Below, in pieces: positions 32,067 to 45,294 of a stretch of 64,000 bases of DNA. Each line of letters begins with the position of its first letter. The first letter of the stretch is position 1. Position numbers and translations under genes: made by a program. The notes under the pieces were generated by a model that saw nothing but the letters and a program-made list of their open reading frames with translations, made no database searches and was not told the origin of the DNA. The stretch comes from Desulfoscipio sp. XC116 (GTDB taxonomy: Bacteria > Bacillota > Desulfotomaculia > Desulfotomaculales > Desulfallaceae), in contig NZ_CP156660.1 of NCBI RefSeq assembly GCF_039851975.1, forward strand, positions 2,547,035-2,611,034, written 5' to 3'.

Positions 32067-32235
32067 GTTAAGCTTATAAGGTTTGATTTTCCCCTTTTAC
32101 ATCAAGCTCGGAAAATCCAGAAACCCTGTAGCTTTATAATTCCGGTGGAGCATTACAATCTTCATTTATATGAAGTATAGTAATTTAGAAAACAATTTTA
32201 TATATATGGGTGATTTCATGGACTGCATCACAATA
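32067..32235 (+). repeat. Regulator promoter block, copy 1 (partner 36254-36420)
   Basis: About 167 bp nearly identical to 36254-36420: promoter, untranslated leader and first six codons (ATGGACTGCATCACAATA) of the HTH-PAS-AraC regulator. It includes the CTTCAT-N4-ATGAAG palindrome and TATAGT -10 box. Confidence 0.9.
32160..32181 (+). promoter_or_regulatory. Palindrome plus -10 box before regulator copy 1
   Basis: CTTCATTTATATGAAG directly abuts TATAGT. The same arrangement with 11-bp arm spacing recurs before copies 2 and 3. Confidence 0.6.
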
Positions 32236-32329
32236 GCGGTGTGAATTACAACGGCAATTTGAAAAAAAATTTAAAGATACGTTAGGAATGACTCCCGCCC
32301 AATACCGGGCAACGATGGCCCAAAAATAA
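32218..32329 (+). pseudogene. HTH-PAS-AraC regulator, internally deleted
   Basis: The first six codons of the regulator run straight into its last about 31 codons (GVNYNGNLKKKFKDTLGM ... QYRATMAQK, stop 32327-32329), in a different frame. About 270 internal codons are gone, but both the promoter and the terminator (32346-32378) remain. Confidence 0.8.
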
Positions 32330-32343
32330 AAAAATGAGTAATT

Positions 32344-32380
32344 GACTTCCGTGTGATGGTTTCGGAGGTCTTTTTTTATT
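32344..32380 (+). terminator. Terminator after deleted regulator
   Basis: GACTTCCG/CGGAGGTC stem followed by seven Ts; same hairpin as after the intact regulator at 37963. Confidence 0.88.
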
Positions 32381-32578
32381 TACAACATAGCACCCAGCGG
32401 CGTAAATATAGCACTGGAATGAATATCCCGCTTACCATCATTTACATATAATCGGAAAAAACTGACCGATATACCGCTGATTTGTCTAAGGGTAAACACA
32501 GCCTTATAAACCGAATTACCGACGCAAACCTTCAAATCCTTGACGCTACGGGGAATGTGTTCATGGGGAAAACAACCT
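32381..32578. other. Spacer before the adhesin leader block
   Basis: No recognised gene. A plus-strand frame is open from 32482 through the leader block but has no ribosome site. Confidence 0.3.
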
Positions 32579-32991
32579 TTTTAGCAAATCTATCCGATCC
32601 GATGGAAATGTTCACGAGCGATAGATCAGGCAGAAAGATATTATCCTCTGAGTATAGGGAGGCTATTTTTTTCCCATTACCCAAGATGAGGGACAAACCA
32701 CCAGGGGAGCAGTGGAATTATGATCAAAACGAATAATGAGGAGGAAAAGCCATGCAAAAAAACAAAATAATTTTGGCTCTTTTACTTGTCGCAGCCTTAA
32801 CCATTGCGCAACTGCCCGTGACGGCGCTGGCGGCCAGTGCGGGCGAGCCCGCACTGGATAGTGGTACTAATAGTGAAGGCGGCGAGATCATCGCCTTCTA
32901 CACGCTGCCGGAGGAAACGGCAAACCAAACGGTAGCTTTAGGCACCTCTCTGGAGGATTTGAATTTGCCGAACACCTTAAACGCAACGCCG
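32579..32991 (+). repeat. Adhesin 5' block, copy 1 (partner about 38747-39150)
   Basis: Nearly identical to the other copy from TTAGCAAATCTATCCGATCC through the ribosome site GAGGAGG and the first about 75 codons, apart from a 30-bp insertion in the coding part of this copy and a 33-bp insertion before the ribosome site of the other. The non-coding part is also an open frame in both copies (FTSDRSGRKILSSEYREA), so it may have been coding once. Confidence 0.85.
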
Positions 32992-35900
32992 CTCTTAACA
33001 GGCGGTCTAAACGGCTCCGGCGAAAATCTATTGGTCAATCCCGATGCGGAATCCGGCGACAGCGATGTTGGCTGGCAGAATGAGCGCGGGCCGGTGATGG
33101 GGAATTCCGGCGGAGGAAGAACCGGGAATTATTTTCAAATCCGGGCGCAGGGGCATGTATCAACGAATTCAATCTACTATCAGGATGTGGATATCAGTAG
33201 CCTGGGGGCCCAAATCGATGCCGGCTTAATCATGATCAGTCTGAACGGATATTTTTTCAAGGAAGGAAATGAAGAGACGGATCAAACGAAAATCCGCCTT
33301 GAGATGCTGGACGCGGATAGCGACTTGGTTGCCGGCCCCTTTGAGCGCAGCTGCTCCACGGAAGGAGGCTGGCCAGCACAATGGGAAGCGTTTGCGATTA
33401 GTGAAGGCGCGGTTTCCGGCACCAGAACGCTTCGTGTAACGATGGATGCCTATGTCAACGGCGGAGGTGTGAATATTACCTATCCAGGCGGGCCCTTTAG
33501 TCCACCACATTATGAGACGATCTATCACCATGCCGGCTTCGACGACATGTCCCTCACCGCCGTGGAGGACACAAGCGAGGCGCCCGTTGTTTCCACAATA
33601 GCCAGCCAGGTGACCGATTCGGGGAGCACGTTGGGGCCGCTCGGCTTTACGGTCAGCGATACGGATACAAATCTGAGCAGCCTCACAGTATCGGCATATT
33701 CATCGAATCAGACGCTGATCCCCGATGCGAACATCGAGGTTAGTCTGAGCGGGGCTAATGGCGCAATCCGCCTAAGATCGGTGGAATACGAGATTGGCGA
33801 AGCGGATGTGACGATCGCCGTTTCCGACGGAAACAAGACCACGCGCATGCGTTTCCGGGTCACCGTATATCCGGCCATTCAAATTGGAAGCAACATCGTG
33901 ATCAACGGCGATGGAACGTCCATAACGGGTTGGACAAACCCGGAGGGCCGTTTCTATTCCGACGGTGTTAAGTTTATCGTAGGAACAGTAAGTTCCACGG
34001 AATATTTCATGTACCAGGATATCGATGTCACACGCTTTAGCAACATATTTGATAAGGGGATGTCCCGCTTTACCGCCTCATGCGATGCCACGCAGGGAGG
34101 AAAAATGATCATATCCGGTCTTGCCGCAAACGGAAGCACGCTGTGGACAAAAACAAGCGGCAGTCTGATTGACGCAGGCACGCGCAAAATCCGTGTTTCG
34201 ATCGGAGGGCCAATAGGCGCAACGGTAGACAATGTCAGCGTAATCCTGCAAAACACCCTGCCCACCCTCAAAAGCGGTGTCCCGACGGAAGCTTCGGCGA
34301 GCGTGACATACGGCGATACGTATACCCTTGACTTATCTGATATTTTCACCGACGCCGAAGGCGGCCCGCTGAACTACAAGGTGTCGTTAAACAGCGCGGC
34401 GGCTGTTGACATACCTTCATCACTTTATAGTTATACGCCTGCAAAGGCGGGTATAACAACGCATAAATTTCTCGCATACGACAACTACAACGGATATACA
34501 GACGATAACAACAGATATAAAGTAACCTTGACGGCGAACAAAAAAACACCCACGGCGGCTGATTTGACCTATAGCCTTGACAATAAAACCTATAACGGAT
34601 TGGCGCAGTCTCTAAACGTGACCGGTCCTGCAGGGCTTGGCACGATGACGGTCAAATATAACGGCAGCGCTGCTGCTCCCAAAGACGCCGCTACTTACGC
34701 CGTCACGGTGAGCATAGCGGAGGGCACAAACTATGCTGCGACAACCGCAGATATTACCCTTGGTGATTACACCATCGCTAAGGCGCCGCTGACCATTACC
34801 GGCGGGGCAGCGGCAGCGAAAACCTACGACGGTACGACAAGCGCCGCGCTAAGCGCCATTACCTTCGGCGGACTGCAAAACAGCGAAACGCTGGCTATCG
34901 GTACCGACTACACCGTAAACGAAGCTGCGTTTGACAGCGCGGACGCGGGCAGCGGCAAGACCGTAACCGGCACGGTGGCGCTTACCGATTCGGGAACAGC
35001 CGGGAATTATCTCCTGAGCAGCACCGGCTTAAACCTAACGGGACAGAGCATCAGCAAGGCCACCGCGCCAACAGGCGTCGATCAGATGTTAGAAGTGGTC
35101 AAGAATCATTCGCAGGACTACGCCTTCGACCTGACCACCCTACTGCCGGCCATCAGCAGTCCGAAGTCCTTGGGGACGGTGACATACGTTCCTTCGATTA
35201 CCGCCAACAGCGACGGTGTACTGAGTTTGCTCAATTATACCTCCGGCAATACGCTGACCATTCCGGTGAACCCGGTAGCCGCCGCGGATAAAACCGCCAC
35301 CATTAAGGTAACGGTAAAAAGCACGAACTATGCGGATTTCGACACGGTTATCACCGTAAAGACCATTGATGCCGATACTACAGCCCCCACCCTCACCGGC
35401 CCGACGGCCATGACGCTGGCGGAAGGCTACAGCGCCACCTCCACCGGGGACTACACCATTACGGGCACGGAGCCGGTGGAGGTAACCAAGACCTCCGGGG
35501 ACAGCAAAATCACATGGAACGATGCGACAAAGAAGCTGGACATCGCGGCGGGACTCACGCCAGGCAGCTATCCGGTTATCCTGACAGCAAGCAACGGCAC
35601 CTCGCCCGACGCTACGCTAACCTTCACCCTGACAGTGAGTTCAGTTGACGAGGACGGCTGCCTGGTAACATACAAGGGGGCGCAAGCGAGACATAACGGG
35701 GACACAAATACCTATGATATTCGTTTTATCGCCATTATCAATACCCTGAACGCCAAGGAAGTCGGCTTTGTTTTCTCAAAAACCCAGGCAATCCCCACCA
35801 GGGAGAATGCTTTCGTGAAAGCGACCTCGACGGTATATGAGGAGATAACAGCATCAGGTTCGCCCGTAACGGCGGCAAGCCTGGGAGGACAGTATATCAT

Positions 35901-36039
35901 TGCGTGTTCCGTTACCGGAATTCCGGCGGATGATATCAACGACGAACTTCATGTGAGAGCCTTTTCAACCGTAGGAACAGCAACAAAATACACGCCGGTG
36001 ACGACAGTCACTGTCAGCGGATTACTAACCCCATTATGA
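32752..36039 (+). CDS. Large secreted surface protein with Ig-like, MBG and YDG domains (copy 1)
   Basis: 1095 residues with a Sec signal peptide (KNKIILALLLVAALTIAQLP, cleavage near ALAA). After a shared SLEDLNLPNTLNAT segment, a unique region of about 430 residues has two jelly-roll-like modules (ENLLVNPDAESG...; SNIVINGDGTSITGW...). The shared C-terminal 580 residues follow: a cadherin-like module (YGDTYTLDLSDIFTD), an MBG module (KTPTAADLTYSLDNKTYNG), a YDG module (PLTITGGAAAAKTYDGTTSA), a bacterial Ig stretch and a conserved end domain (GAQARHNGDTNTYDIRF). No sortase motif or SLH. GAGGAGG precedes the ATG. The last six residues (GLLTPL) come from fusion to LivG debris, so the end is slightly altered. 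Confidence 0.85.
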   Translation: MQKNKIILALLLVAALTIAQLPVTALAASAGEPALDSGTNSEGGEIIAFYTLPEETANQTVALGTSLEDLNLPNTLNATPLLTGGLNGSGENLLVNPDAESGDSDVGWQNERGPVMGNSGGGRTGNYFQIRAQGHVSTNSIYYQDVDISSLGAQIDAGLIMISLNGYFFKEGNEETDQTKIRLEMLDADSDLVAGPFERSCSTEGGWPAQWEAFAISEGAVSGTRTLRVTMDAYVNGGGVNITYPGGPFSPPHYETIYHHAGFDDMSLTAVEDTSEAPVVSTIASQVTDSGSTLGPLGFTVSDTDTNLSSLTVSAYSSNQTLIPDANIEVSLSGANGAIRLRSVEYEIGEADVTIAVSDGNKTTRMRFRVTVYPAIQIGSNIVINGDGTSITGWTNPEGRFYSDGVKFIVGTVSSTEYFMYQDIDVTRFSNIFDKGMSRFTASCDATQGGKMIISGLAANGSTLWTKTSGSLIDAGTRKIRVSIGGPIGATVDNVSVILQNTLPTLKSGVPTEASASVTYGDTYTLDLSDIFTDAEGGPLNYKVSLNSAAAVDIPSSLYSYTPAKAGITTHKFLAYDNYNGYTDDNNRYKVTLTANKKTPTAADLTYSLDNKTYNGLAQSLNVTGPAGLGTMTVKYNGSAAAPKDAATYAVTVSIAEGTNYAATTADITLGDYTIAKAPLTITGGAAAAKTYDGTTSAALSAITFGGLQNSETLAIGTDYTVNEAAFDSADAGSGKTVTGTVALTDSGTAGNYLLSSTGLNLTGQSISKATAPTGVDQMLEVVKNHSQDYAFDLTTLLPAISSPKSLGTVTYVPSITANSDGVLSLLNYTSGNTLTIPVNPVAAADKTATIKVTVKSTNYADFDTVITVKTIDADTTAPTLTGPTAMTLAEGYSATSTGDYTITGTEPVEVTKTSGDSKITWNDATKKLDIAAGLTPGSYPVILTASNGTSPDATLTFTLTVSSVDEDGCLVTYKGAQARHNGDTNTYDIRFIAIINTLNAKEVGFVFSKTQAIPTRENAFVKATSTVYEEITASGSPVTAASLGGQYIIACSVTGIPADDINDELHVRAFSTVGTATKYTPVTTVTVSGLLTPL

Positions 36040-36228
36040 ACCTGGTGATGAACCTGTGCGACCGGGTGGCCGTGCTGAACTTCGGTCAAAAAATCGCCGA
36101 GGGAGCGCCGGGAACAGCCCGCGGGCAATCTTTCCGGAGGGGAACAGCAGATGCTGGCCATCGGCAGGGCACTGATGGTCCGGCCCAGACTGCTGCTGGA
36201 TGAACCCTCCGTGGGGCCGCCGCCGTAG
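36036..36228 (+). pseudogene. Fused LivG/LivF ABC-ATPase remnant
   Basis: The first part encodes the C-terminus of a LivG-type branched-chain amino acid ATPase ([23 protein letters not shown]). After a frame change comes the middle of LivF ([20 protein letters not shown] ... LLLDEPSVG) before a stop. The intervening LivG end and LivF start are missing. The adhesin copy 1 frame ends inside its first codon. Confidence 0.8.
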
Positions 36229-36253
36229 GAAGTAATAATTTTATTTTATCATG

Positions 36254-36420
36254 GTTAAGCTTATAAGGTTTGATTTTCCCCCTTTACATCAAGCTCGGAA
36301 AATCCAGAAACCCTGTAGCTTTATAATTCCGGTGGAGCATTACAATCTTCATTTATATGAAGTATAATAATTTAGAAAACAATTATATATATGGGTGATT
36401 TCATGGACTACATCACAATA
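36254..36420 (+). repeat. Regulator promoter block, copy 2
   Basis: Near-identical partner of 32067-32235, with a 2-nt shorter A/T tract before the ATG at 36403. Confidence 0.9.
36347..36368 (+). promoter_or_regulatory. Palindrome plus -10 box before regulator copy 2
   Basis: CTTCATTTATATGAAG directly followed by TATAAT (36363-36368). Confidence 0.6.
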
Positions 36421-36901
36421 TAAAGAAGAGGCAGCAAAATGGGGTGTATCTACACGGGCGATTACATACCATGTGGTGAGCGGACGCATCGAGGGCGCGA
36501 TAAAAAGGGGGAATCTGTGGCTCATTCCTCAGAATTCCCCTCAACCATCTGACGAACGGCGAAAGAAAAGCCTCATGCAAAGTGAAAAGGAACAGGTGGT
36601 ATCTAAAGACATATATGAATTATATGAACAAAACAGGCATGAAGGCCCATGGCCTTTTCAGTCTCTCTATGAAAATAAAGAGCTGTTTGCCCAGATCGTG
36701 AAGCACTTTCCCTATCCGATGCATATATGTGCGCCGGATGGCACGATGCTGCTGGCCAATGAAGAGTTTTTACAGTTCGCTAAAATATCCAATCCCGAAA
36801 GAATATATAAAAAATACAATGTATTGTTAAATCCAAACCTCGCCAGATGGGGAATAAAGGACTTTGTTTTGCGGGCGTTCCAAGGAGAAACCGATCTTTA
36901 A
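36403..36901 (+). pseudogene. HTH-PAS regulator, frameshifted and truncated (copy 2)
   Basis: Reads MDYITI, then one extra T shifts the frame; the rest continues as KEEAAKWGVSTRAITYHVVS and the PAS-like segment (FPYPMHICAPDGTMLLANEEF) before stopping after FQGETDL. The AraC half is missing. About 65% similar to the intact copy at 37025. Confidence 0.8.
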
Positions 36902-36965
36902 GTGGCTAATTGGCACCTTTAAGCCTATTTCCGTTAAGAGTCAACTCAGGGATTGTCCTTGAATT

Positions 36966-36987
36966 CTTCATCTGTTTGAAGTATAAT
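36966..36987 (+). promoter_or_regulatory. Palindrome plus -10 box before the intact regulator
   Basis: CTTCATCTGTTTGAAG directly followed by TATAATGAG. The arms are conserved although the flanks differ from copies 1 and 2, which argues for function, probably autoregulation. Confidence 0.6.
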
Positions 36988-37024
36988 GAGATAAACAAAT
37001 ACATCGTCAAATAGAGGATTTTTC

Positions 37025-37963
37025 ATGAATTACATAACGATAAAAGAAGCCGCAGAAAAATGGGGCGTATCCACACGGTCCATTACCTACCATGTGGTGT
37101 CGGGTCGGATTGCCGGAGCCGTAAAAACAGGGAACACTTGGCTGATCCCAAAAGAAACCGCCAAGCCGAAGGATAAAAGGCGTAAACAAGCCCCCTCGCA
37201 AACGGAAACAGAAGCGGTCATCCAGTCACCAATACCATTGATCGAAAACAAAGATGTATTTGCAGAAATCGTCAAGCAGCTTCCGTATCCGCTGCATATC
37301 TGCGCGCCGGATGGCACAATAATTTTCGCAAATGAAGCGTTTTTTGAGTTTGTTAAGTCTCCTACAAGAGAATTGATAAAGGGCAACAACCTACGCAACA
37401 ATCCGAACCTTGACAGATGGGGCGTAAAAGATTTTGTACGGCGGGCGTTTCAGGGAGAGATTGTCCACGCCTATGATCTTAGAGTGCCGCTTCAAGAACT
37501 GATCGAAAAGTATGGCGGCAATGCTGAGCTGCTTTCGGAAAGCCTGTATCACAATATGACGGCTTTTCCCATCCGTGATGCACACCATAAAATAGCATAT
37601 ATCGTGACTGTTTTTACCACTTCCCGGTATTATCAGGGCAGGGATGAAGTGATAAGGGGCAAAGAATACATAGATGAGCATTGGAAGGAAGAGTTTGATG
37701 CGGATGTACTGTCACGCATTGTCCATATGAGCAGGTATCACTACGCACGTTTATTTAAGGAACATGTGGGTATGACGCCCCACCACTATTATCAGAGCGT
37801 TAAGCTCCAAAAGCTCAAGAAAATGCTGTGTGACAGCAATCTGTCCATCGCCCAAGTGTTTAATGAATGTGGCGTGGATTACAACGGAAAGCTGTCAAAA
37901 AAACTCAAACAGGAATTGGGAATGACCCCATCCGAGTATCGGGCAATGATGATACAAGAATAG
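37025..37963 (+). CDS. HTH (excisionase-type) - PAS - AraC transcriptional regulator
   Basis: 312 residues in an unusual order. Residues 1-45 are an excisionase/MerR-like helix-turn-helix (YITIKEAAEKWGVSTRSITY ... GNTWLIPK). A PAS-like sensor follows at about 80-200 (YPLHICAPDGTIIFANEAFF). The C-terminal AraC-type DNA-binding domain spans about 215-310 (VLSRIVHMSRYHYARLFKEH ... GMTPSEYR). Two DNA-binding ends flanking a sensor suggest looping or dual-site control. A strong terminator follows. By position it is the likely regulator of the downstream surface-protein genes (inference). Confidence 0.8.
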   Translation: MNYITIKEAAEKWGVSTRSITYHVVSGRIAGAVKTGNTWLIPKETAKPKDKRRKQAPSQTETEAVIQSPIPLIENKDVFAEIVKQLPYPLHICAPDGTIIFANEAFFEFVKSPTRELIKGNNLRNNPNLDRWGVKDFVRRAFQGEIVHAYDLRVPLQELIEKYGGNAELLSESLYHNMTAFPIRDAHHKIAYIVTVFTTSRYYQGRDEVIRGKEYIDEHWKEEFDADVLSRIVHMSRYHYARLFKEHVGMTPHHYYQSVKLQKLKKMLCDSNLSIAQVFNECGVDYNGKLSKKLKQELGMTPSEYRAMMIQE

Positions 37964-37976
37964 AAAAATTAAGAGA

Positions 37977-38014
37977 AAGACTTCCGGCTGCCACGGTTCG
38001 GAGGTCTTTTTTTG
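37977..38014 (+). terminator. Terminator of the regulator gene
   Basis: GACTTCCG/CGGAGGTC stem with a 12-nt loop and TTTTTTTG. Confidence 0.9.
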
Positions 38015-38088
38015 TGTGCAAAACAGCACAAAAGTCAGCAAATACCGCCACGAAAACAGTAATCCCTTTCTCCTCATGAGCGCTAAAA

Positions 38089-38748
38089 TTGTATTTACAA
38101 AATAGCGGCTGTCCCAATCGGGACGCACTTGAGGAATTGCCGGACGAAATCCGCCGGCAGAACACCGCCGAGCTCATATTCCCCGAAACGGTGGGCGGTA
38201 CGGTGGAGGGCGAAGCCGTACAAGTTCCGGTGACATGGCAGACGGAGCAGGACGATGACGAGAACGCCCCCGAGCACGGGCTTTATGTGTTTGACGCTGT
38301 GCCGGGCGAGGGCTATACCCTTGCGGGCGGCCTTGAAGCGCTCCGCATCACGGTGTATATCCCCGAAACGGTCAGCCGCTTTGCGCCTTTCCGTATGGGC
38401 GGCGGCGGTACAGGCATAAGTCCGCTGGAAATTACCACGGCGGCGCAGCTTGCGGAAATTGCCGAGCTGGTCAATGCGGGACGGTTGGAGAGCTTTTTGC
38501 TCAATGACGCCAGCGCAAAGGTTTATCTGAAGCTGATGAACGACCTCGACCTCTCCGCATATGGTCAAGACTACAACGGCGGCAAGGGCTGGCAGCCGAT
38601 TGGAGGTTATATCAACAACAAAGTGATGCCTTTTAAGAGCAACTTTGACGGCGGCAGGTATACGATTTCTGGACTGTACATCAACGACAGCTCCCGTGAC
38701 TACGTTGGCTTGTTCGGCATGATCGAATCAGCTACGATACAAAATTAG
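38089..38748 (+). pseudogene. Fragment of a GLUG/Ig surface protein
   Basis: About 219 codons that lack a signal peptide and start codon context. They contain an Ig-like segment (ALEELPDEI ... PVTWQTEQDD ... GYTLAGGLE) matching the 5' end of the intact surface proteins, then an ITTAAQLAEIAELVNAG / GYNGGKGWQPIGG / YVGLFGMIE segment typical of GLUG-repeat adhesins. It ends exactly where the adhesin 5' block (38747 on) begins. Confidence 0.75.
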
Positions 38749-39150
38749 CAAATCTATCCGATCCGGTGAAACTGTTCACGAGCGATAGATCAGGCAGAAA
38801 GATATTATCCTCTGAGTATAGGGAGGCTGTTTTTTTCCCCTTACCCAAGATGAGGGACAAACCACCAGGGGAGCAGTGATATTTATGAAATGAGGTTCTA
38901 TGAAAACAGAGTTATGATCAAAACGAATAATGAGGAGGAAAAGCCATGCAAAAAACCAAAATAATTTTGGCTCTTTTACTTGTCGCAGCCTTAACCATTG
39001 CGCAACTGCCTGTGACGGCGCTGGCGGCCAGTGCGGGCGAAGGCGGCGAGATCATCGCTTTCGACACACTGCCGGAGGAAACGGCAAACCAAACGGTAGC
39101 TTTAGGCACCTCTCTGGAGGATTTGAATTTGCCAAACACCCTGAACGCAA
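38747..39150 (+). repeat. Adhesin 5' block, copy 2
   Basis: Partner of 32579-32991. Contains the ribosome site, signal peptide and SLEDLNLPNTLNAT segment; a 33-bp insertion lies before the ribosome site. Confidence 0.85.
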
Positions 39151-42131
39151 CCGTGCGCGTGGTAGCCGAGGATACAGAAGCACCCGAGCCGGAAACAACG
39201 GAGATAAATATTCCAATTCCTGTGGAGTGGGCATCTTCACCCGATTATGACGGCGAAAAGGCCGGGGCTTACATCTTTAACGCTCAAGTATCGGGTTATA
39301 CTCTAAATGCTGATCTGCCTGAAATTGCAATCACAGTCGGCAAAGCGGCGCCGATTCTTGCAGCTCTCGCGGGCGCGGTCTGCAATGTCAACGGGGTGGA
39401 TTACACCGATTCCATTCGGGCTATTAGAGATGCCTTTGAAAATGGGGGAACTTTGACGCTGCTGCAAGATATCGACTGTAATGAACCTGTTGATTTACTC
39501 GCAACGCGAACCCTTGAAGTTAATCTAAATGGGTACACGTTGAACATCAACAGTAAACTACAAGCCTTCAGCGACTCAACCCTTAACCTTGTTGGGGAGG
39601 GGGAAAACGCGCATCTGAACATTAATGGTGCTGCGGTCGTACTTCAGAATAAGGCCAAAGCAAGGGTCTCTAATATTTATTCACCTGACGGATACGCCGC
39701 TGAGCTCGCAAATTTCTGCTCATTAACCGTTTCCGGGGATGCGCGCGGCGATGAAAAAGGCGTGTGGATTAATGGCAGCAAATCCTCACTGCATATAGGT
39801 GGGGACCTTATTGTTACAAATGCCTCCTACGGCATTGATGCCAGATTCAGTACTGGTACCAGTGAAAATAGTATTATGATTGGAGGCGATCTTTGTGTGA
39901 CCGGTTCCAGACCTGTGGGGGTGTACGCAACAGATATCACCACCACAATAAACGGCGGGATCTATCTGCAAGGAGCACCGGAAAGCATTGCCATTAAGAT
40001 GGGTATAGAGCCCTCGAAAACTTTCTCCCTTGGCGAGGGGACATATAATTCAGGCACCGGCTATTTTGAATACACCTTCTATAATAGCAAGGTTCATGTC
40101 AAGGGTCATGCGCTGACTGTCGCCGCAGGTACCGGCGGCACTGTGACCCCCGATTCGGGCCCCTTCGAGGGCGGACGGGTTGTCAATCTTTCGGCAACGC
40201 CCGCCAACATTCATTCTGCCTTCAACAACTGGACCAGTGTAGGCGGAGGAACTTTCACCGACAGCAATGCCGCTTCCACAACATTTATCATGCCGTCCAC
40301 GGACACGACGGTTACGGCAAATTTCACATTCGCAAACACCCTGCCCACCCTCAAAAGCGGTGTCCAGACGGAAGCTTCGGCGAGCGTGACATTAGGCGAT
40401 ACGTATACCCTTGACTTATCTGATATTTTCACCGACACCGATGAAGACCCTCTAAAGTACAAGGTGTCGTTAAACGGCGTGGGGGCTGTATATATAGAAG
40501 ATTCTTCATCATATTCTTCACTATATACATATACACCTACAGAATTGGGTACAACAACGCACAAATTTCTCGCACACGACGACTACAACGGATATACCGA
40601 CAATAACAACAAATATAAAGTAACCTTGACGGCGAACAAAAAAACACCCACGGCGGCTGATTTGACCTATAGCCTTGCCAATAAAACCTATAACGGATTG
40701 GCGCAGTCTCTAAACGTGACCGGCCCATCAGGGCTTGGCACGATGACGGTCAAATATAACGGCAGCGCTACTGCTCCCAGAGACGCCACTACTTACGCCG
40801 TCACGGTGAGCATAGCGGAGGGCACAAACTATGCTGCGACAACCGCAGATATTACCCTGGGTGATTACACCATCGCTAAGGCGCCGCTGACCATTACCGG
40901 CGGGGCAGCGGCAGCGAAAACCTACGATGGTACGACAAGCGCCGCGCTAAGCGCCATAACCTTCGACGGACTGCAAAACAGCGAAACGTTGGCTATCGGT
41001 ACCGACTACACCGTAACCGAAGCTGCCTTTGACAGCGCGGACGCGGGCAGCGACAAGACCGTAACCGGCGCGGTGATGCTTGCCGGTTCGGGAACAGCCA
41101 AGAATTATACCCTGAGCAGCACTGGCTTAAACCTAACGGGACAGAGCATCAGCAAGGCCGCCGCGCCAACCGGCGTCGATCAGATGTTAGAAGTGGTCAA
41201 GAATCATTCGCAGGACTACCCCTTCGACCTGACCACCCTACTGCCGGCCATCAGCAGTCCGAAGTCCTTGGGGACGGTGGCATACGTTCCTTCGATTACC
41301 GCCAACGGCGACGGTGTGCTGGGTTCGCTTAATTATACCTCCGGCGATACGCTGACCATTCCGGTGAACCCGGTAGCCGCCGCGGATAAAACCGCCACCA
41401 TTAAGGTAACGGTAAAAAGTACGAACTATGCGGATTTCGACACGGTTATCACCGTAAAGACCATTGATGCCGATACTACAGCCCCCACCCTCACCGGCCC
41501 GACGGCCATGACGCTAGCGGAAGGCTACGGCGCCACCTCCACCGGGGACTACACCATTACGGGCACGGAGCCGGTGGAGGTAACCAAGACCTCCGGGGAC
41601 AGCAAAATCACATGGAACGATGCGACAAAGAAGCTGGACATCGCGGCGGGACTCACGCCAGGCAGCTATCCGGTTATCCTGACAGCAAGCAACGGCACCT
41701 CGCCCGACGCTACGCTAACCTTCACCCTGACAGTGAGTTCAGTTGACGAGGACGGCTGCCTGGTAACATACAAGGGGGCGCAAGCGAGACATAACGGGGA
41801 CACAAATACCTATGATATTCGTTTTATCGCCATTATCAATACCCTGAACGCCAAGGAAGTCGGCTTTGTTTTCTCAAAAACCCAGGCAATCCCCACCAGG
41901 GAGAATGCTTCCGAGAAAGCGACCTCGACGGTATATACCCAGATAACAGCCTCAGGTTCACCCGTAACGGCAAAAAGCCTGGGAGGGCAGTATATCATTG
42001 CGTGTACCGTTACCGAAATTCTGGAAAGTGACATTAAAGTTCCGCTCTATGTCAGAGCTTTTTCAACAGTGGGAACAGCAACAAAATACACGCCGGTGAC
42101 CACAGTCACTGTCAAGGATTTAATTGATTAG
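38946..42131 (+). CDS. Large secreted surface protein with beta-helix-like, MBG and YDG domains (copy 2)
   Basis: 1061 residues. Signal peptide and first about 60 residues match copy 1. The middle (about 65-460) is unrelated to copy 1: an Ig-like PVEWASSPDYDGEKAGAYIF module, a right-handed beta-helix-like stretch (LNINGAAVVLQNKAKARVSN, GGDLIVTNASYG) and an InlB/DUF-type repeat (GTGGTVTPDSGPFEGG). From NTLPTLKSGV on, about 590 residues are nearly identical to copy 1 and end TVTVKDLID. The stop is followed at once by the RiPP precursor gene. Confidence 0.87.
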   Translation: MQKTKIILALLLVAALTIAQLPVTALAASAGEGGEIIAFDTLPEETANQTVALGTSLEDLNLPNTLNATVRVVAEDTEAPEPETTEINIPIPVEWASSPDYDGEKAGAYIFNAQVSGYTLNADLPEIAITVGKAAPILAALAGAVCNVNGVDYTDSIRAIRDAFENGGTLTLLQDIDCNEPVDLLATRTLEVNLNGYTLNINSKLQAFSDSTLNLVGEGENAHLNINGAAVVLQNKAKARVSNIYSPDGYAAELANFCSLTVSGDARGDEKGVWINGSKSSLHIGGDLIVTNASYGIDARFSTGTSENSIMIGGDLCVTGSRPVGVYATDITTTINGGIYLQGAPESIAIKMGIEPSKTFSLGEGTYNSGTGYFEYTFYNSKVHVKGHALTVAAGTGGTVTPDSGPFEGGRVVNLSATPANIHSAFNNWTSVGGGTFTDSNAASTTFIMPSTDTTVTANFTFANTLPTLKSGVQTEASASVTLGDTYTLDLSDIFTDTDEDPLKYKVSLNGVGAVYIEDSSSYSSLYTYTPTELGTTTHKFLAHDDYNGYTDNNNKYKVTLTANKKTPTAADLTYSLANKTYNGLAQSLNVTGPSGLGTMTVKYNGSATAPRDATTYAVTVSIAEGTNYAATTADITLGDYTIAKAPLTITGGAAAAKTYDGTTSAALSAITFDGLQNSETLAIGTDYTVTEAAFDSADAGSDKTVTGAVMLAGSGTAKNYTLSSTGLNLTGQSISKAAAPTGVDQMLEVVKNHSQDYPFDLTTLLPAISSPKSLGTVAYVPSITANGDGVLGSLNYTSGDTLTIPVNPVAAADKTATIKVTVKSTNYADFDTVITVKTIDADTTAPTLTGPTAMTLAEGYGATSTGDYTITGTEPVEVTKTSGDSKITWNDATKKLDIAAGLTPGSYPVILTASNGTSPDATLTFTLTVSSVDEDGCLVTYKGAQARHNGDTNTYDIRFIAIINTLNAKEVGFVFSKTQAIPTRENASEKATSTVYTQITASGSPVTAKSLGGQYIIACTVTEILESDIKVPLYVRAFSTVGTATKYTPVTTVTVKDLID
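40337..42100 (+). repeat. Adhesin 3' block (partner about 34250-36010)
   Basis: About 1.75 kb near-identical to copy 1, coding for the cadherin-like, MBG, YDG and end domains. Differences are concentrated in a few patches, such as the SSSYSSLYTYTPTEL insertion and the last 25 codons. Confidence 0.88.
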
Positions 42132-42144
42132 GGAGGTGTTTGTT

Positions 42145-42273
42145 ATGAAAAAGGCTTATGAAAAGCCGGAGATTGAAATTATAACATTTGAACCGGAGGA
42201 TATCCTGGCAAGTACATTAACCAACGGGGGCAGCGGGACCGGCGACGAATTCGGCTGGGGCGACATTCGTTAA
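42145..42273 (+). CDS. RiPP precursor peptide, lasso-like
   Basis: 42 residues. The leader has the lasso-type recognition motif Y-x-x-P-x-I (YEKPEI, 5-10) preceded by MKKA, then an acidic/hydrophobic segment ending in STLTN. If cleaved before Gly28 the leader has Thr at position -2 (Thr26), as lasso leaders do, and the core GGSGTGDEFGWGDIR has acids at core positions 7 and 8, where lasso rings close onto residue 1. GGGAGGTG lies 6 nt before the ATG; 13 nt after the surface-protein stop. Kinase, PqqD-like and peptidase genes follow. Confidence 0.65.
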   Translation: MKKAYEKPEIEIITFEPEDILASTLTNGGSGTGDEFGWGDIR

Positions 42274-42286
42274 AAAGCATGGCTGG

Positions 42287-42330
42287 CTGAACATGACAGG
42301 CGGTTAAAGCCCCCTGTCCTGTTCAGCCCA
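42287..42330 (+). promoter_or_regulatory. Long hairpin between precursor and biosynthetic genes
   Basis: GGCTGAACA/TGTTCAGCC plus GACAGG/CCTGTC with one internal mismatch. No T-run follows, so it may protect the precursor mRNA end or attenuate rather than terminate fully. Confidence 0.6.
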
Positions 42331-42369
42331 TGTGTATCCCTCATCGGGCCGGAAAGGAAGAAAATCAAT

Positions 42370-43104
42370 TTGAACCATTACAAAATAGCCGACTTGACCG
42401 TGGCAATGGAAGGCGCGGGAGAAACCCTGCAAAGATTAATGAAGCCCTACGGGGCGGATACAAAGGGAAAAGCGGATATTACCATGAGTATCGACAGGGA
42501 AAAAATGCACAAGACCGGAGCAAAATATCCCCATCTGTCACTTGACGAGTGGGAATACATTCAGACGGGCTATGCCTTTGCCTGCAAGCTGCTGGACTTT
42601 GACGGATTCTGCCTCCACGCTTCGGCAGTGGCGCTGGATGGCCAAGCGGTCCTGTTTTCCGGCCCCTGCGGTACGGGCAAATCCACCCATACCCATCTGT
42701 GGCGGCAATATTTTGGCCCGGACCGGGCGGTGGTTATCAATGACGACAAGCCGCTGTTGCGCCGGACAGAGGATATTTTTTACGTCTATGGCGCACCCTG
42801 GAGCGGGAAAAGCGCCTTGAATAACAATATCCGTGTCCCCCTCAGTGCGGTTGTTTTTCTGAAACAGGCAAAGGAAAATCATATCCGGCGCTTGAGCAAT
42901 AAGGAAGCGGTGCAAATGCTGTTTTACCAGAGCCAGCGTCCGGGCGGCGACAGGGACAGGATAAACAGGCTTTTAACCCTGATGGACGCCCTGCTGCAAA
43001 AGATACCGGTCTATCAACTGGACTGCGACATCAGCATTGATGCGGTAAAAACGGCATATTACGAAATCTGTCAATCAAGAATGGAAACGAGGAATGAAAA
43101 ATGA
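42370..43104 (+). CDS. HPr-kinase-like peptide kinase
   Basis: 244 residues of the HprK/PEPCK-like fold: Walker A GPCGTGKST (98-106), INDDKPLL as the metal/catalytic segment and the WSGKSALNNN loop. Lacks the N-terminal domain of true HprK. Such stand-alone kinases phosphorylate Ser/Thr of lasso peptides such as paeninodin. Its position right after the precursor supports this; the core has Ser and Thr but no C-terminal Ser. TTG start after GGAAAGGAAG. Confidence 0.72.
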   Translation: MNHYKIADLTVAMEGAGETLQRLMKPYGADTKGKADITMSIDREKMHKTGAKYPHLSLDEWEYIQTGYAFACKLLDFDGFCLHASAVALDGQAVLFSGPCGTGKSTHTHLWRQYFGPDRAVVINDDKPLLRRTEDIFYVYGAPWSGKSALNNNIRVPLSAVVFLKQAKENHIRRLSNKEAVQMLFYQSQRPGGDRDRINRLLTLMDALLQKIPVYQLDCDISIDAVKTAYYEICQSRMETRNEK

Positions 43105-43364
43105 AGATAAAGTCCGATTATGTGATGCGCGAGGTTGCCGGAACCTGTGTGGTGGTGCCCACAGGCAAGGCGTCCATCGATTTTTCCGGCATGATCAGCT
43201 TAAACGGCACCGGTGCGTTTTTGTGGAAACAGCTTGCGGAGGATAAGACCGAGCAGGAATTGCTTTCCGCCATGCTGGAGGAATATGAAACGGATGAAGC
43301 CACCGTCAAAGCCGATATATCCGAATTTCTCCAGAAGTTAAAGGAAGCTGATCTCCTTGAATAA
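43101..43364 (+). CDS. PqqD-like RiPP recognition element (B1-type)
   Basis: 87 residues, winged-helix PqqD family: VMREVAGTCVVVPTGKASID, then LNGTGAFLWKQL and a C-terminal helix pair. In lasso and other RiPP systems this domain binds the YxxPxL leader motif and presents the substrate to the protease/cyclase. The ATG overlaps the kinase stop. Confidence 0.82.
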   Translation: MKIKSDYVMREVAGTCVVVPTGKASIDFSGMISLNGTGAFLWKQLAEDKTEQELLSAMLEEYETDEATVKADISEFLQKLKEADLLE

Positions 43365-43839
43365 AATAGTTGCCATGTCGGAGCTTTCACCGCTGATGAA
43401 GGAGACCCTGGAAAACGGCGGAGAAGTTATTTTTACACCAACCGGCGACAGTATGCGCCCCCTGCTGCGCCACTGCGAGGATAAGGTGTGCATTATGAAA
43501 CCGCGGGGAAACTGTTTGAAAAAATATGATATCCCTTTATTTATCCGCAATAACGGCCAATATGTCCTGCACAGGATCGTGGCGGTAAAAGCGGACGGCT
43601 ATGTCGTCACCGGAGATAATCAGTACGTCAAGGAATACCGGGTGCAGCATTCCCAGGTCATCGGCGTAGTCAGAGGAATCTGGCGGAACGGTAAATACAT
43701 ATCCTGTGAAGGTTTTTGGTATCAAGTATATTGCAGGTTCTGGGTATGGATATATCCCCTCCGGTGGATTTATTTAAGAGCAAGGCAAGTCTTTTTTAGA
43801 ATGAAAAGGTTTTTGGGAGATAAAGCCTATGAAGGATAA
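43357..43839 (+). CDS. S26/S24-type signal-peptidase-like protease
   Basis: 160 residues. GDSMRPLL carries the nucleophile Ser32; the second catalytic segment is YVLHRIVAV, with His72 where ER/SipW-type signal peptidases have His rather than Lys, followed by VVTGDNQYV. No clear N-terminal membrane helix, but a hydrophobic/aromatic C-terminal stretch (FWVWIYPLRWIYLR). It could remove the leader of the neighbouring precursor in place of a B2 protease (inference). The start is TTG at 43357 overlapping the PqqD stop. Confidence 0.7.
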   Translation: MNKIVAMSELSPLMKETLENGGEVIFTPTGDSMRPLLRHCEDKVCIMKPRGNCLKKYDIPLFIRNNGQYVLHRIVAVKADGYVVTGDNQYVKEYRVQHSQVIGVVRGIWRNGKYISCEGFWYQVYCRFWVWIYPLRWIYLRARQVFFRMKRFLGDKAYEG

Positions 43840-44123
43840 ACAGACGTTCCTGTGCATTGACGGTATTATACATATTTGACCCTCTCTTTGCCCTGATTTT
43901 CGCTTGCGGCGGCCTAAATTTATTCCTTGCGGCAAGATTTTTCCCAGATGAAGCCACCGAAGAAAGGCTTATCAACAATATACGGAACCTGACCGACAAG
44001 ACCCGCATCCTGATAAGCCATAAAAAAACGGCGTTACCCGTGTGTGATAGGGAAATCCGTATCAAAAACGGAAAATTGCTCACTATCGAAAAGAGGCGTC
44101 CACATGCAGTCCATACAGCTTGA
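43829..44123 (+). pseudogene. ABC exporter remnant with internal deletion
   Basis: Starts MKDKQTFLCIDGIIHI and stops; after a frame change the sequence resumes as PDEATEERLINNIRNLTDKT RILISHKKTAL and ends IRIKNGKL. These are the D-loop and H-loop (SHKKTA) of an ABC exporter ATPase. Membrane domain, Walker A and signature are gone. An exporter is the expected partner of a RiPP cluster. Confidence 0.78.
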
Positions 44124-45294
44124 AAGCCAATATTTAATTCACCTGCTGTCCGCGGTATTAAAGGATACACAGCCACAAAATCCGCCGGATAAGCTGGATT
44201 GGGAAAAGCTATATAAGCTTGCGGTCTGGCATGGCGTATCGAATATGGCTTGCTATGGCGTAAGCAGGCTGACGTGTGACAATCAGCCACCCCGGGACAT
44301 TCTGGAGAAATTTGAGAGCGACCGCAAAAAAGCCGTGGCAAGAGAAGCCACCCAGCATATCGCGGTGGAGCAAATCTTAGAAGCCTTTGAAGAAAAGGGA
44401 ATTGCCAGTATGCCCCTGAAAGGCTGCCTGCTTAAATATCTGTATCCGCGTCCCGACATGCGCCTAATGGCCGACATAGATATTTATTTTAAAACGGAAC
44501 AGGCGGAAAAGGTAAAGAAAATCATGCCGGAGCAAGGCTATACGGCTAAGCACCAGGGCGGAAACCACGATGTTTTTTACAGGCAGCCGTTCATGAATAT
44601 AGAAATGCACCACCGGCTTATTTCAGAAGACAGTCCCTACAGCGATTATCTGAAAAAAACCTGGGAGAGAGCTCTCCTAAAACCTGGCTGTGATTATACA
44701 TACGAGCTTTCCCGTGAGGACTTTTATATCTATCTCTTAATCCACCTGACCAAACACTACTCGGGCGGCGGCACCGGCATCCGTTCTTTTCTGGACATAT
44801 GGGTGTATAAAGAGCGCTATAAAGATGAAATGGACTGGGACTACATACAGGCGGAGCTAAATAAAATCAACTTTCTGGAATTTGCGAAAAACATCTCCGG
44901 CCTTTGTGAAGTATGGTTTGGGAATGCCGGGAGCACTGTGTTGTACGATGAAATGACGGAGTACGTTTCTTGCAGCGGCGTTTATGGCATAAGAAAACAT
45001 GCTGTCGTATCTTCTATGGGCATCAAGTCAGGTAAACAGTATTCGGTCAGGATGGCAAAATGGTTGTACAGCTTGAAGCTGTTTTTTCCGCCCTTTGACA
45101 TCATGAAAATCAAATACCCGTTCCTTGAAAGGGTGCCTAAACTACTTCCGATCTGCTGGGTGCTGCGGGGCATCCGGTGTATCGTATTCAAACGCAGGAA
45201 TACGCTGCAAATGATCAATAATGTCCACGCCGTATCAGAGCAAGACATAAGAAAAATAGGACGGCTGCATGAAAAAGCAGGGCTTTTGAAGTAA
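44104..45294 (+). CDS. Nucleotidyltransferase-family protein (NTP_transf_5)
   Basis: 396 residues. The segment MPLKGCLLKYLYPRPDMRLMADIDIYF has the LKG...R...DxD signature of this family, Asp residues being the metal ligands. The same family is found in lasso clusters with kinases, where its role is unsettled. Start ATG at 44104 with AAGAGGCG upstream; the longer frame from 44044 lies in exporter debris. Confidence 0.75.
   Translation: MQSIQLESQYLIHLLSAVLKDTQPQNPPDKLDWEKLYKLAVWHGVSNMACYGVSRLTCDNQPPRDILEKFESDRKKAVAREATQHIAVEQILEAFEEKGIASMPLKGCLLKYLYPRPDMRLMADIDIYFKTEQAEKVKKIMPEQGYTAKHQGGNHDVFYRQPFMNIEMHHRLISEDSPYSDYLKKTWERALLKPGCDYTYELSREDFYIYLLIHLTKHYSGGGTGIRSFLDIWVYKERYKDEMDWDYIQAELNKINFLEFAKNISGLCEVWFGNAGSTVLYDEMTEYVSCSGVYGIRKHAVVSSMGIKSGKQYSVRMAKWLYSLKLFFPPFDIMKIKYPFLERVPKLLPICWVLRGIRCIVFKRRNTLQMINNVHAVSEQDIRKIGRLHEKAGLLK

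Follow-up and report, generated by a model that had tools for sequence, protein, structure and literature searches.

The window analysed here, a 64,000-nucleotide stretch of the Desulfoscipio sp. XC116 genome, carries a cassette in which the genes for a large secreted surface protein and a short precursor peptide are followed by those for a kinase, a RiPP recognition element (RRE), a peptidase, the remains of an ABC exporter and a nucleotidyltransferase (Table 1). The preliminary description of this DNA had listed the precursor, kinase, PqqD-like protein, S26-like peptidase and nucleotidyltransferase, and all five were recovered in the order that it gave; the exporter remnant had been overlooked.

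Table 1. Features of the cassette, in positions of the window
Feature	Position	Strand	Evidence
Surface protein, 1061 aa, secreted	38946..42131	+	ORF; Pfam: Big_4, InlB-type repeat, MBG, YDG
Precursor peptide MKKAYEKPEIEIITFEPEDILASTLTNGGSGTGDEFGWGDIR, 42 aa	42145..42273	+	Sequence; homologues; leader profile
HprK-like kinase, TTG start, LppK counterpart	42370..43104	+	TIGR04249/HprK_rel (below cut-off); AlphaFold2; conserved motif
PqqD-type RRE	43101..43364	+	PF05402 7.5e-20; PDB matches TbiB1, LppB, PbaB1, TfuB1
S26-like (archaeal/SipW-type) Ser-His-Asp peptidase, predicted leader peptidase, LppS counterpart	43357..43839	+	Triad; model; TIGR02228 1.8e-4
ABC exporter pseudogene, LppD position	43829..44123	+	tblastn with intact L023 exporter; TIGR03375/TIGR01193 matches
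Nucleotidyltransferase, LppN counterpart, DxD motif ADIDIYF	44104..45294	+	PF14907 8.5e-72

Genes of the cassette and its copies in the genome

The precursor frame opens with an ATG at 42145, 13 bp past the stop codon of the 1061-aa surface protein, has an AGGGAGG ribosome site and closes with a stop codon at 42271-42273. Its leader is predicted to span about residues 1-22 and its core about residues 23-42 (such as STLTNGGSGTGDEFGWGDIR), on either side of a putative cleavage site. The surface protein carries a conserved C-terminal domain (...YVRAFSTVGTATKYTPVTTVTV) that is also present on proteins upstream of other precursors. The genes for two paralogous surface proteins of the YDG/MBG type, at 32752-36039 and 38946-42131, lie within an apparent segmental duplication of ~6.1 kb (32067-36392 and 36254-42131); genes for helix-turn-helix/AraC-like regulators separate them, and a precursor follows only the second.

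A search of PDB sequences with the kinase profile returned generic P-loops only, and a fold search then resolved the protein: its AlphaFold2 model (pLDDT 92.4) matches the fold of HprK/P and PEPCK. Its Walker A motif, GPCGTGKST, is invariant in 28 homologues, and its best NCBIfam match is ScmC (1.4e-8, below the cut-off). The peptidase triad S32, H72 and D87 is likewise invariant in 29 homologues, and the matches of the peptidase model (pLDDT 92.5) include signal peptidases of human and staphylococcal origin as well as LexA/UmuD-type folds. When the RRE profile was compared with the PDB, the lasso RREs TbiB1, PbaB1 and TfuB1 ranked above LppB.

Between the peptidase and nucleotidyltransferase genes, the exporter survives as its start codon region and two internal fragments, which together keep residues 3-13, 154-183 and 513-570 of 570 after the deletion of ~1.4 kb. 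An intact exporter occupies the same position in six other loci (L023, L026, L028, L029, L031 and L032), and several relatives have no exporter there. The first of these six, L023 (C1:703 kb), is a second full cassette in the same complete genome (4.26 Mb, 2 contigs), with an intact 570-aa exporter and a different core. A third copy, L024 (C1:3758 kb), has decayed: its precursor is 93% identical to that of the window, its kinase is frameshifted, and no RRE, peptidase or nucleotidyltransferase was found there. Three copies are also present in G033, a genome from another family of the order, where the exporter is wholly gone from the copy orthologous to the window.

Distribution of the cassette and pairing of its precursors with large secreted proteins

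A kinase scan of 84,980 species genomes yielded at least 522 kinase-related loci, the best 80 of which were fetched and proved to be nearly all clostridial. In most of these 80 the kinase adjoins the RRE and S26 genes; whether exporter and nucleotidyltransferase genes are present, and in which order, differs between loci. A search within the phylum of the window itself gave few loci, because the kinase family occurs mainly in other lineages of clostridia. Eight loci (L045, L048, L050, L051, L060, L061, L063 and L068) have the kinase-RRE-S26 trio beside apparent housekeeping genes, with no precursor found nearby.

A profile search collected 138 precursors (132 with unique C-termini, from 127 loci); many of the relatives are draft metagenome assemblies, and simple rules were used to call gene starts. 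Precursors frequently lie scattered in trans of the cassette; G505, G508 and G532 have 5-6 dispersed precursors each. The consensus over 130 precursors, Y-x-x-P-E-[IL]-E-[IV]-x-x-F-E-V-E-D-[IV]-I-T-x-S, covers the leader, which is the conserved part of these peptides, and the cores are very variable. The T-x-S at the border of leader and core is conserved (T in 82/130 and S in 98/130 precursors), and GTGDExGWG[DE]I is kept across aligned homologues of the window precursor. The latter has Ser at +15 (Ser23) and Thr at +16 (Thr24), where other precursors usually have Ser at +16. Cores from different genomes (L170, L197, L238 and L243) have an EHDNGF-like or DHDNGF-like motif, which suggests that core families extend across loci.

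A precursor 93-95% identical to that of the window recurs in a further copy within this genome and in a different family of the order, the codon changes being 5 synonymous and 2-3 non-synonymous. The preliminary description had taken absence of the frame from related loci as the finding that would count against it; homologues are present in 37 of the 50 cassette genomes tested. This near-identical recurrence with mostly synonymous changes, together with homologues in most cassette genomes tested, shows that the precursor frame is not a chance one.

Across the collection, 81 of the 132 unique precursors start no more than 110 bp downstream of a same-strand gene, typically one for a large secreted protein. 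Among the 60 complete upstream genes, 49 encode a signal-peptide-like N-terminus by a crude hydrophobicity rule, compared with 27% of 548 other genes, and 56 encode proteins of at least 300 aa, the largest having 2825 aa. With its gap of 13 bp, the window obeys the same rule. No single C-terminal domain common to all of the upstream surface proteins was found, and two domain types cover 36/108 of them. The link to surface proteins is real and statistically strong, and we found no description of such a link for LPP-like peptides in the literature searched.

An LPP-like reading of the locus and its alternatives

Linear polyphosphorylated peptides (LPPs) are RiPPs published in May 2026 by Popov et al. 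(PMC13381572), with the lppA-K-B-S-D-N genes of Paenibacillus alginolyticus DSM5050 as reference. These encode the precursor LppA, the kinase LppK, the RRE LppB, the SipW-type peptidase LppS, the exporter LppD and the nucleotidyltransferase LppN; LppK adds several phosphates to Ser3 of the core and does not phosphorylate Thr, and LppS, acting together with LppB, cuts the leader off behind FET, with no involvement of a cyclase (PMC13381572). The LPP leader motif is YxxPxVLxHQxIxFETxxS, and neither Clostridia nor SLH or surface proteins are named in the paper (PMC13381572).

In common with this system, the window has a kinase, a discrete RRE, an S26/SipW-like peptidase with Ser-His-Asp catalytic residues, a nucleotidyltransferase and an MsbA-like exporter (as a remnant only), arranged in a compact operon with neither cyclase nor B2, together with a YxxP leader, a variable core and Thr/Ser at the leader-core border, where T-x-S is comparable to the FET|xxS of LPPs. 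However, the clostridial leader (YxxPEIE[IV]xxFEVED[IV]ITxS) has the YxxPx[hydrophobic] part of the LPP motif but lacks VLxHQ and has a Y-F distance of 10 rather than 13, and the clostridial RRE is not closest to LppB. Furthermore, the clostridial cores are mostly 10-30 aa long and lie behind large secreted proteins, whereas LPPs are found at capsule loci; the exporter is lost in the window, and core-like tails occur on SLH, dockerin or lipoproteins in some relatives. In gene content, peptidase triad and lack of a cyclase the window cassette agrees with LPPs and would work like one; we name it an LPP-like clostridial variant, in preference to a member of the LPP class, because the leader motif differs and the RRE is not clearly LppB-like.

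A clostridial LPP-like RiPP cluster making a short, linear, phosphorylated peptide for the cell surface is the reading of the locus that we consider likely. Several features favour this reading: the gene set recurs around clostridial kinase homologues and equals the LppA-K-B-S-D-N core set; the invariant triad, the modelled signal-peptidase and HprK/PEPCK folds, the absence of B2 from this genome and its near-absence from related ones are consistent with it; and the precursor is retained in the L024 copy despite the frameshifted kinase. Leader spacing, the missing VLxHQ and an RRE profile that matches lasso RREs better than LppB point the other way, as may, by analogy with the inactivity of LppK on Thr, the Thr at the usual Ser position +16. 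By comparison with Paenibacillus, the RRE would bind the leader at Y5-P8, the kinase would phosphorylate a Ser where the core begins (the best candidate being Ser23), the S26 enzyme, given an RRE-bound leader, would cut near residue 22, the nucleotidyltransferase would then elaborate the phosphate, and an MsbA-like exporter would secrete the product. Since the window exporter is deleted, export of its product, if it still happens, would need the intact paralogue at C1:703 kb. As the gene neighbourhoods suggest, the product would act jointly with the large secreted protein whose gene lies immediately upstream, the cell surface being the probable site.

The loss of the exporter could mean that the window copy is no longer productive. 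A leftover, decaying copy, whose genes can still be read and whose peptide is no longer made, would account for the exporter fragments, for the sister copy at C1:3758 kb with its broken kinase and missing RRE, peptidase and nucleotidyltransferase, and for the complete absence of the exporter in G033. Yet every other frame in the window cassette is intact and the changes in the precursor are mostly synonymous, the L023 cassette offers an intact exporter that makes export in trans possible, and several relatives also lack an exporter at this position, so that we regard decay as unlikely, if the most serious of the alternatives.

The position of precursors directly after large secreted proteins, even in trans of the cassette, and the great variability of their cores would also suit a short peptide that is a cytoplasmic adaptor or regulator and not a RiPP precursor, the substrate of the enzymes then being the large surface protein. 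This we think improbable, as the conserved part of the peptide is the leader, which matches an RRE-binding motif, and the homologous short peptide of LPPs is both phosphorylated and cleaved (PMC13381572).

The preliminary description had held that the precursor fits lasso rules, and that the cyclase might lie elsewhere in the genome or the cluster have decayed. Paeninodin-type phosphorylated lasso peptides do share the HprK-like kinase, PqqD RRE, PF14907 nucleotidyltransferase and ABC exporter, but the window is without macrolactam cyclase, B2 or conserved ring residues, and its leader has Tyr in place of Trp. The YxxP leader stands; the Thr at -2 does not, as five homologues have T, L, F, I and Y at the aligned residue, and the lasso pattern of Thr at -2 with an acceptor acid at core positions 7-9 was not found with this position so variable. 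Nor did the complete genome contain any match to B2 (PF13471, the transglutaminase-like leader peptidase) or any Asn-synthetase-like macrolactam cyclase; the sole Asn_synthase match was a canonical AsnB, a glutamine-dependent type of 645 aa with the N-terminus MCGITG, which leaves no cyclase elsewhere. Relatives have the same gene set with no lasso genes, B2 exceeding its family cut-off in 1/40 cassette-carrying genomes, and in the window only the exporter has decayed. The placing of an S26-like peptidase where B2 would be was borne out, an S26 enzyme with an invariant triad holding the leader-peptidase position throughout the family. A degraded paeninodin-type cluster, or one with a distant cyclase, is thus very improbable despite the common accessory genes, the YxxP leader and a weak, below-cut-off hit (E 0.087) to the benenodin model, and we rejected it on the absence of B2 and cyclase and the unconserved Thr-2. 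A kinase, PqqD protein and nucleotidyltransferase should not be called a lasso cluster where a cyclase is missing.

The SynChlorMet cassette (ScmC/ScmD) is similar in that ScmD is a PqqD relative and the kinase has ScmC as its best NCBIfam match, but the window has no radical SAM genes. One relative in the same family carries such a gene between RRE and kinase (L034:8402-9807, minus strand), along with a Cys-containing precursor LATCDPVYNGAKEPPRCTDLHMYKN, and may be a variant of the system with additional modification.

Core-like tails on anchored proteins in relatives

In relatives of the window, a secreted neighbour of the precursor ends in a sequence like the precursor C-terminus at 8 loci, or 9 by a looser list (Table 2). 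In most cases the gene with the copied tail separates the precursor from the kinase or comes immediately behind the precursor, and two further loci with SLH carriers (L038 and L041) show weaker tail similarity. The word ELP(F/P)VP appears in cores and secreted-protein tails of different loci (L181, L196, L256 and L172). The window itself has the pairing with a surface protein and no tail copy: its surface protein ends in VTVKDLID, which does not resemble the precursor core, and a search of the genome for the GWGDIR tail found it only in two precursor copies, with no tail-copy partner by that pattern.

Table 2. Matching C-termini of precursors and secreted neighbours
Locus	Tail pair	Carrier	Remark
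L180	GWSDWWTPEF/GWSDWWTPEY	No Pfam match	
L172	DEDELPPVVIG/DDDELPPVPVG	Lipoprotein-like	
L112	GGWETDVSLPEGWM/GGWETETENPEGWE	Big-repeat protein	Only in list without signal-peptide requirement
L032	GGDIGDY/GADIGDY	SLH protein	
L268	ENMTDKG/DNMTEKG	SLH protein	
L109	NQLPLG/NQLPLG	SLH	Just under cut-off
L256	YELPPVWV/YELPFVPV	Dockerin protein	
L029	GGEIIDG/GGEIIDY	SLH protein	
L069	GIEDGEEN/GIEDGGEL	SLH protein	

Scoring was ungapped and anchored at the C-terminus, with a threshold of at least 30 that was picked after seeing the data; at this score 8 precursors had a matching secreted neighbour, against an expectation of 0.08 when the secreted neighbours of other loci were used and of none when the tails were reversed. 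A threshold of 20 gave 12 matches against 2.2 expected, and lower thresholds a smaller excess that is still present. An initial test that permuted cores against intervening genes, on incomplete pairs, had given only p ~0.01, and the enlarged, better-controlled test was decisive. Different codons are used at 30 of the 58 identical tail residues that allow a synonymous choice, which indicates that the match is maintained in the protein sequence and does not stem from recent copying of DNA. Given SLH, dockerin and lipoprotein carriers, the copied word sits on surface-anchored proteins.

We give even chances to a surface-protein system in clostridia in which every precursor goes with a large secreted protein and the same C-terminal word is borne by the free processed peptide and by the tail of an anchored protein (SLH, dockerin or lipoprotein), the word being specific to each locus and matched within it; in this proposal the two share the word because both must be recognised by one and the same partner. 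Among the options offered by the preliminary description, a new RiPP type linked to surface proteins came closest: the surface link holds, while the type was already known as LPP from the publication of May 2026. What is new is the clostridial form of the system, the pairing of its precursors with large secreted proteins, and the existence of anchored proteins that copy the core.

Together these findings describe a large and little-noticed clostridial branch that is common in gut and rumen genomes. Its ties to surface proteins and its core-copying anchored proteins provide a first concrete, testable hint of LPP function, namely that the peptides act at the cell surface together with a matched partner.
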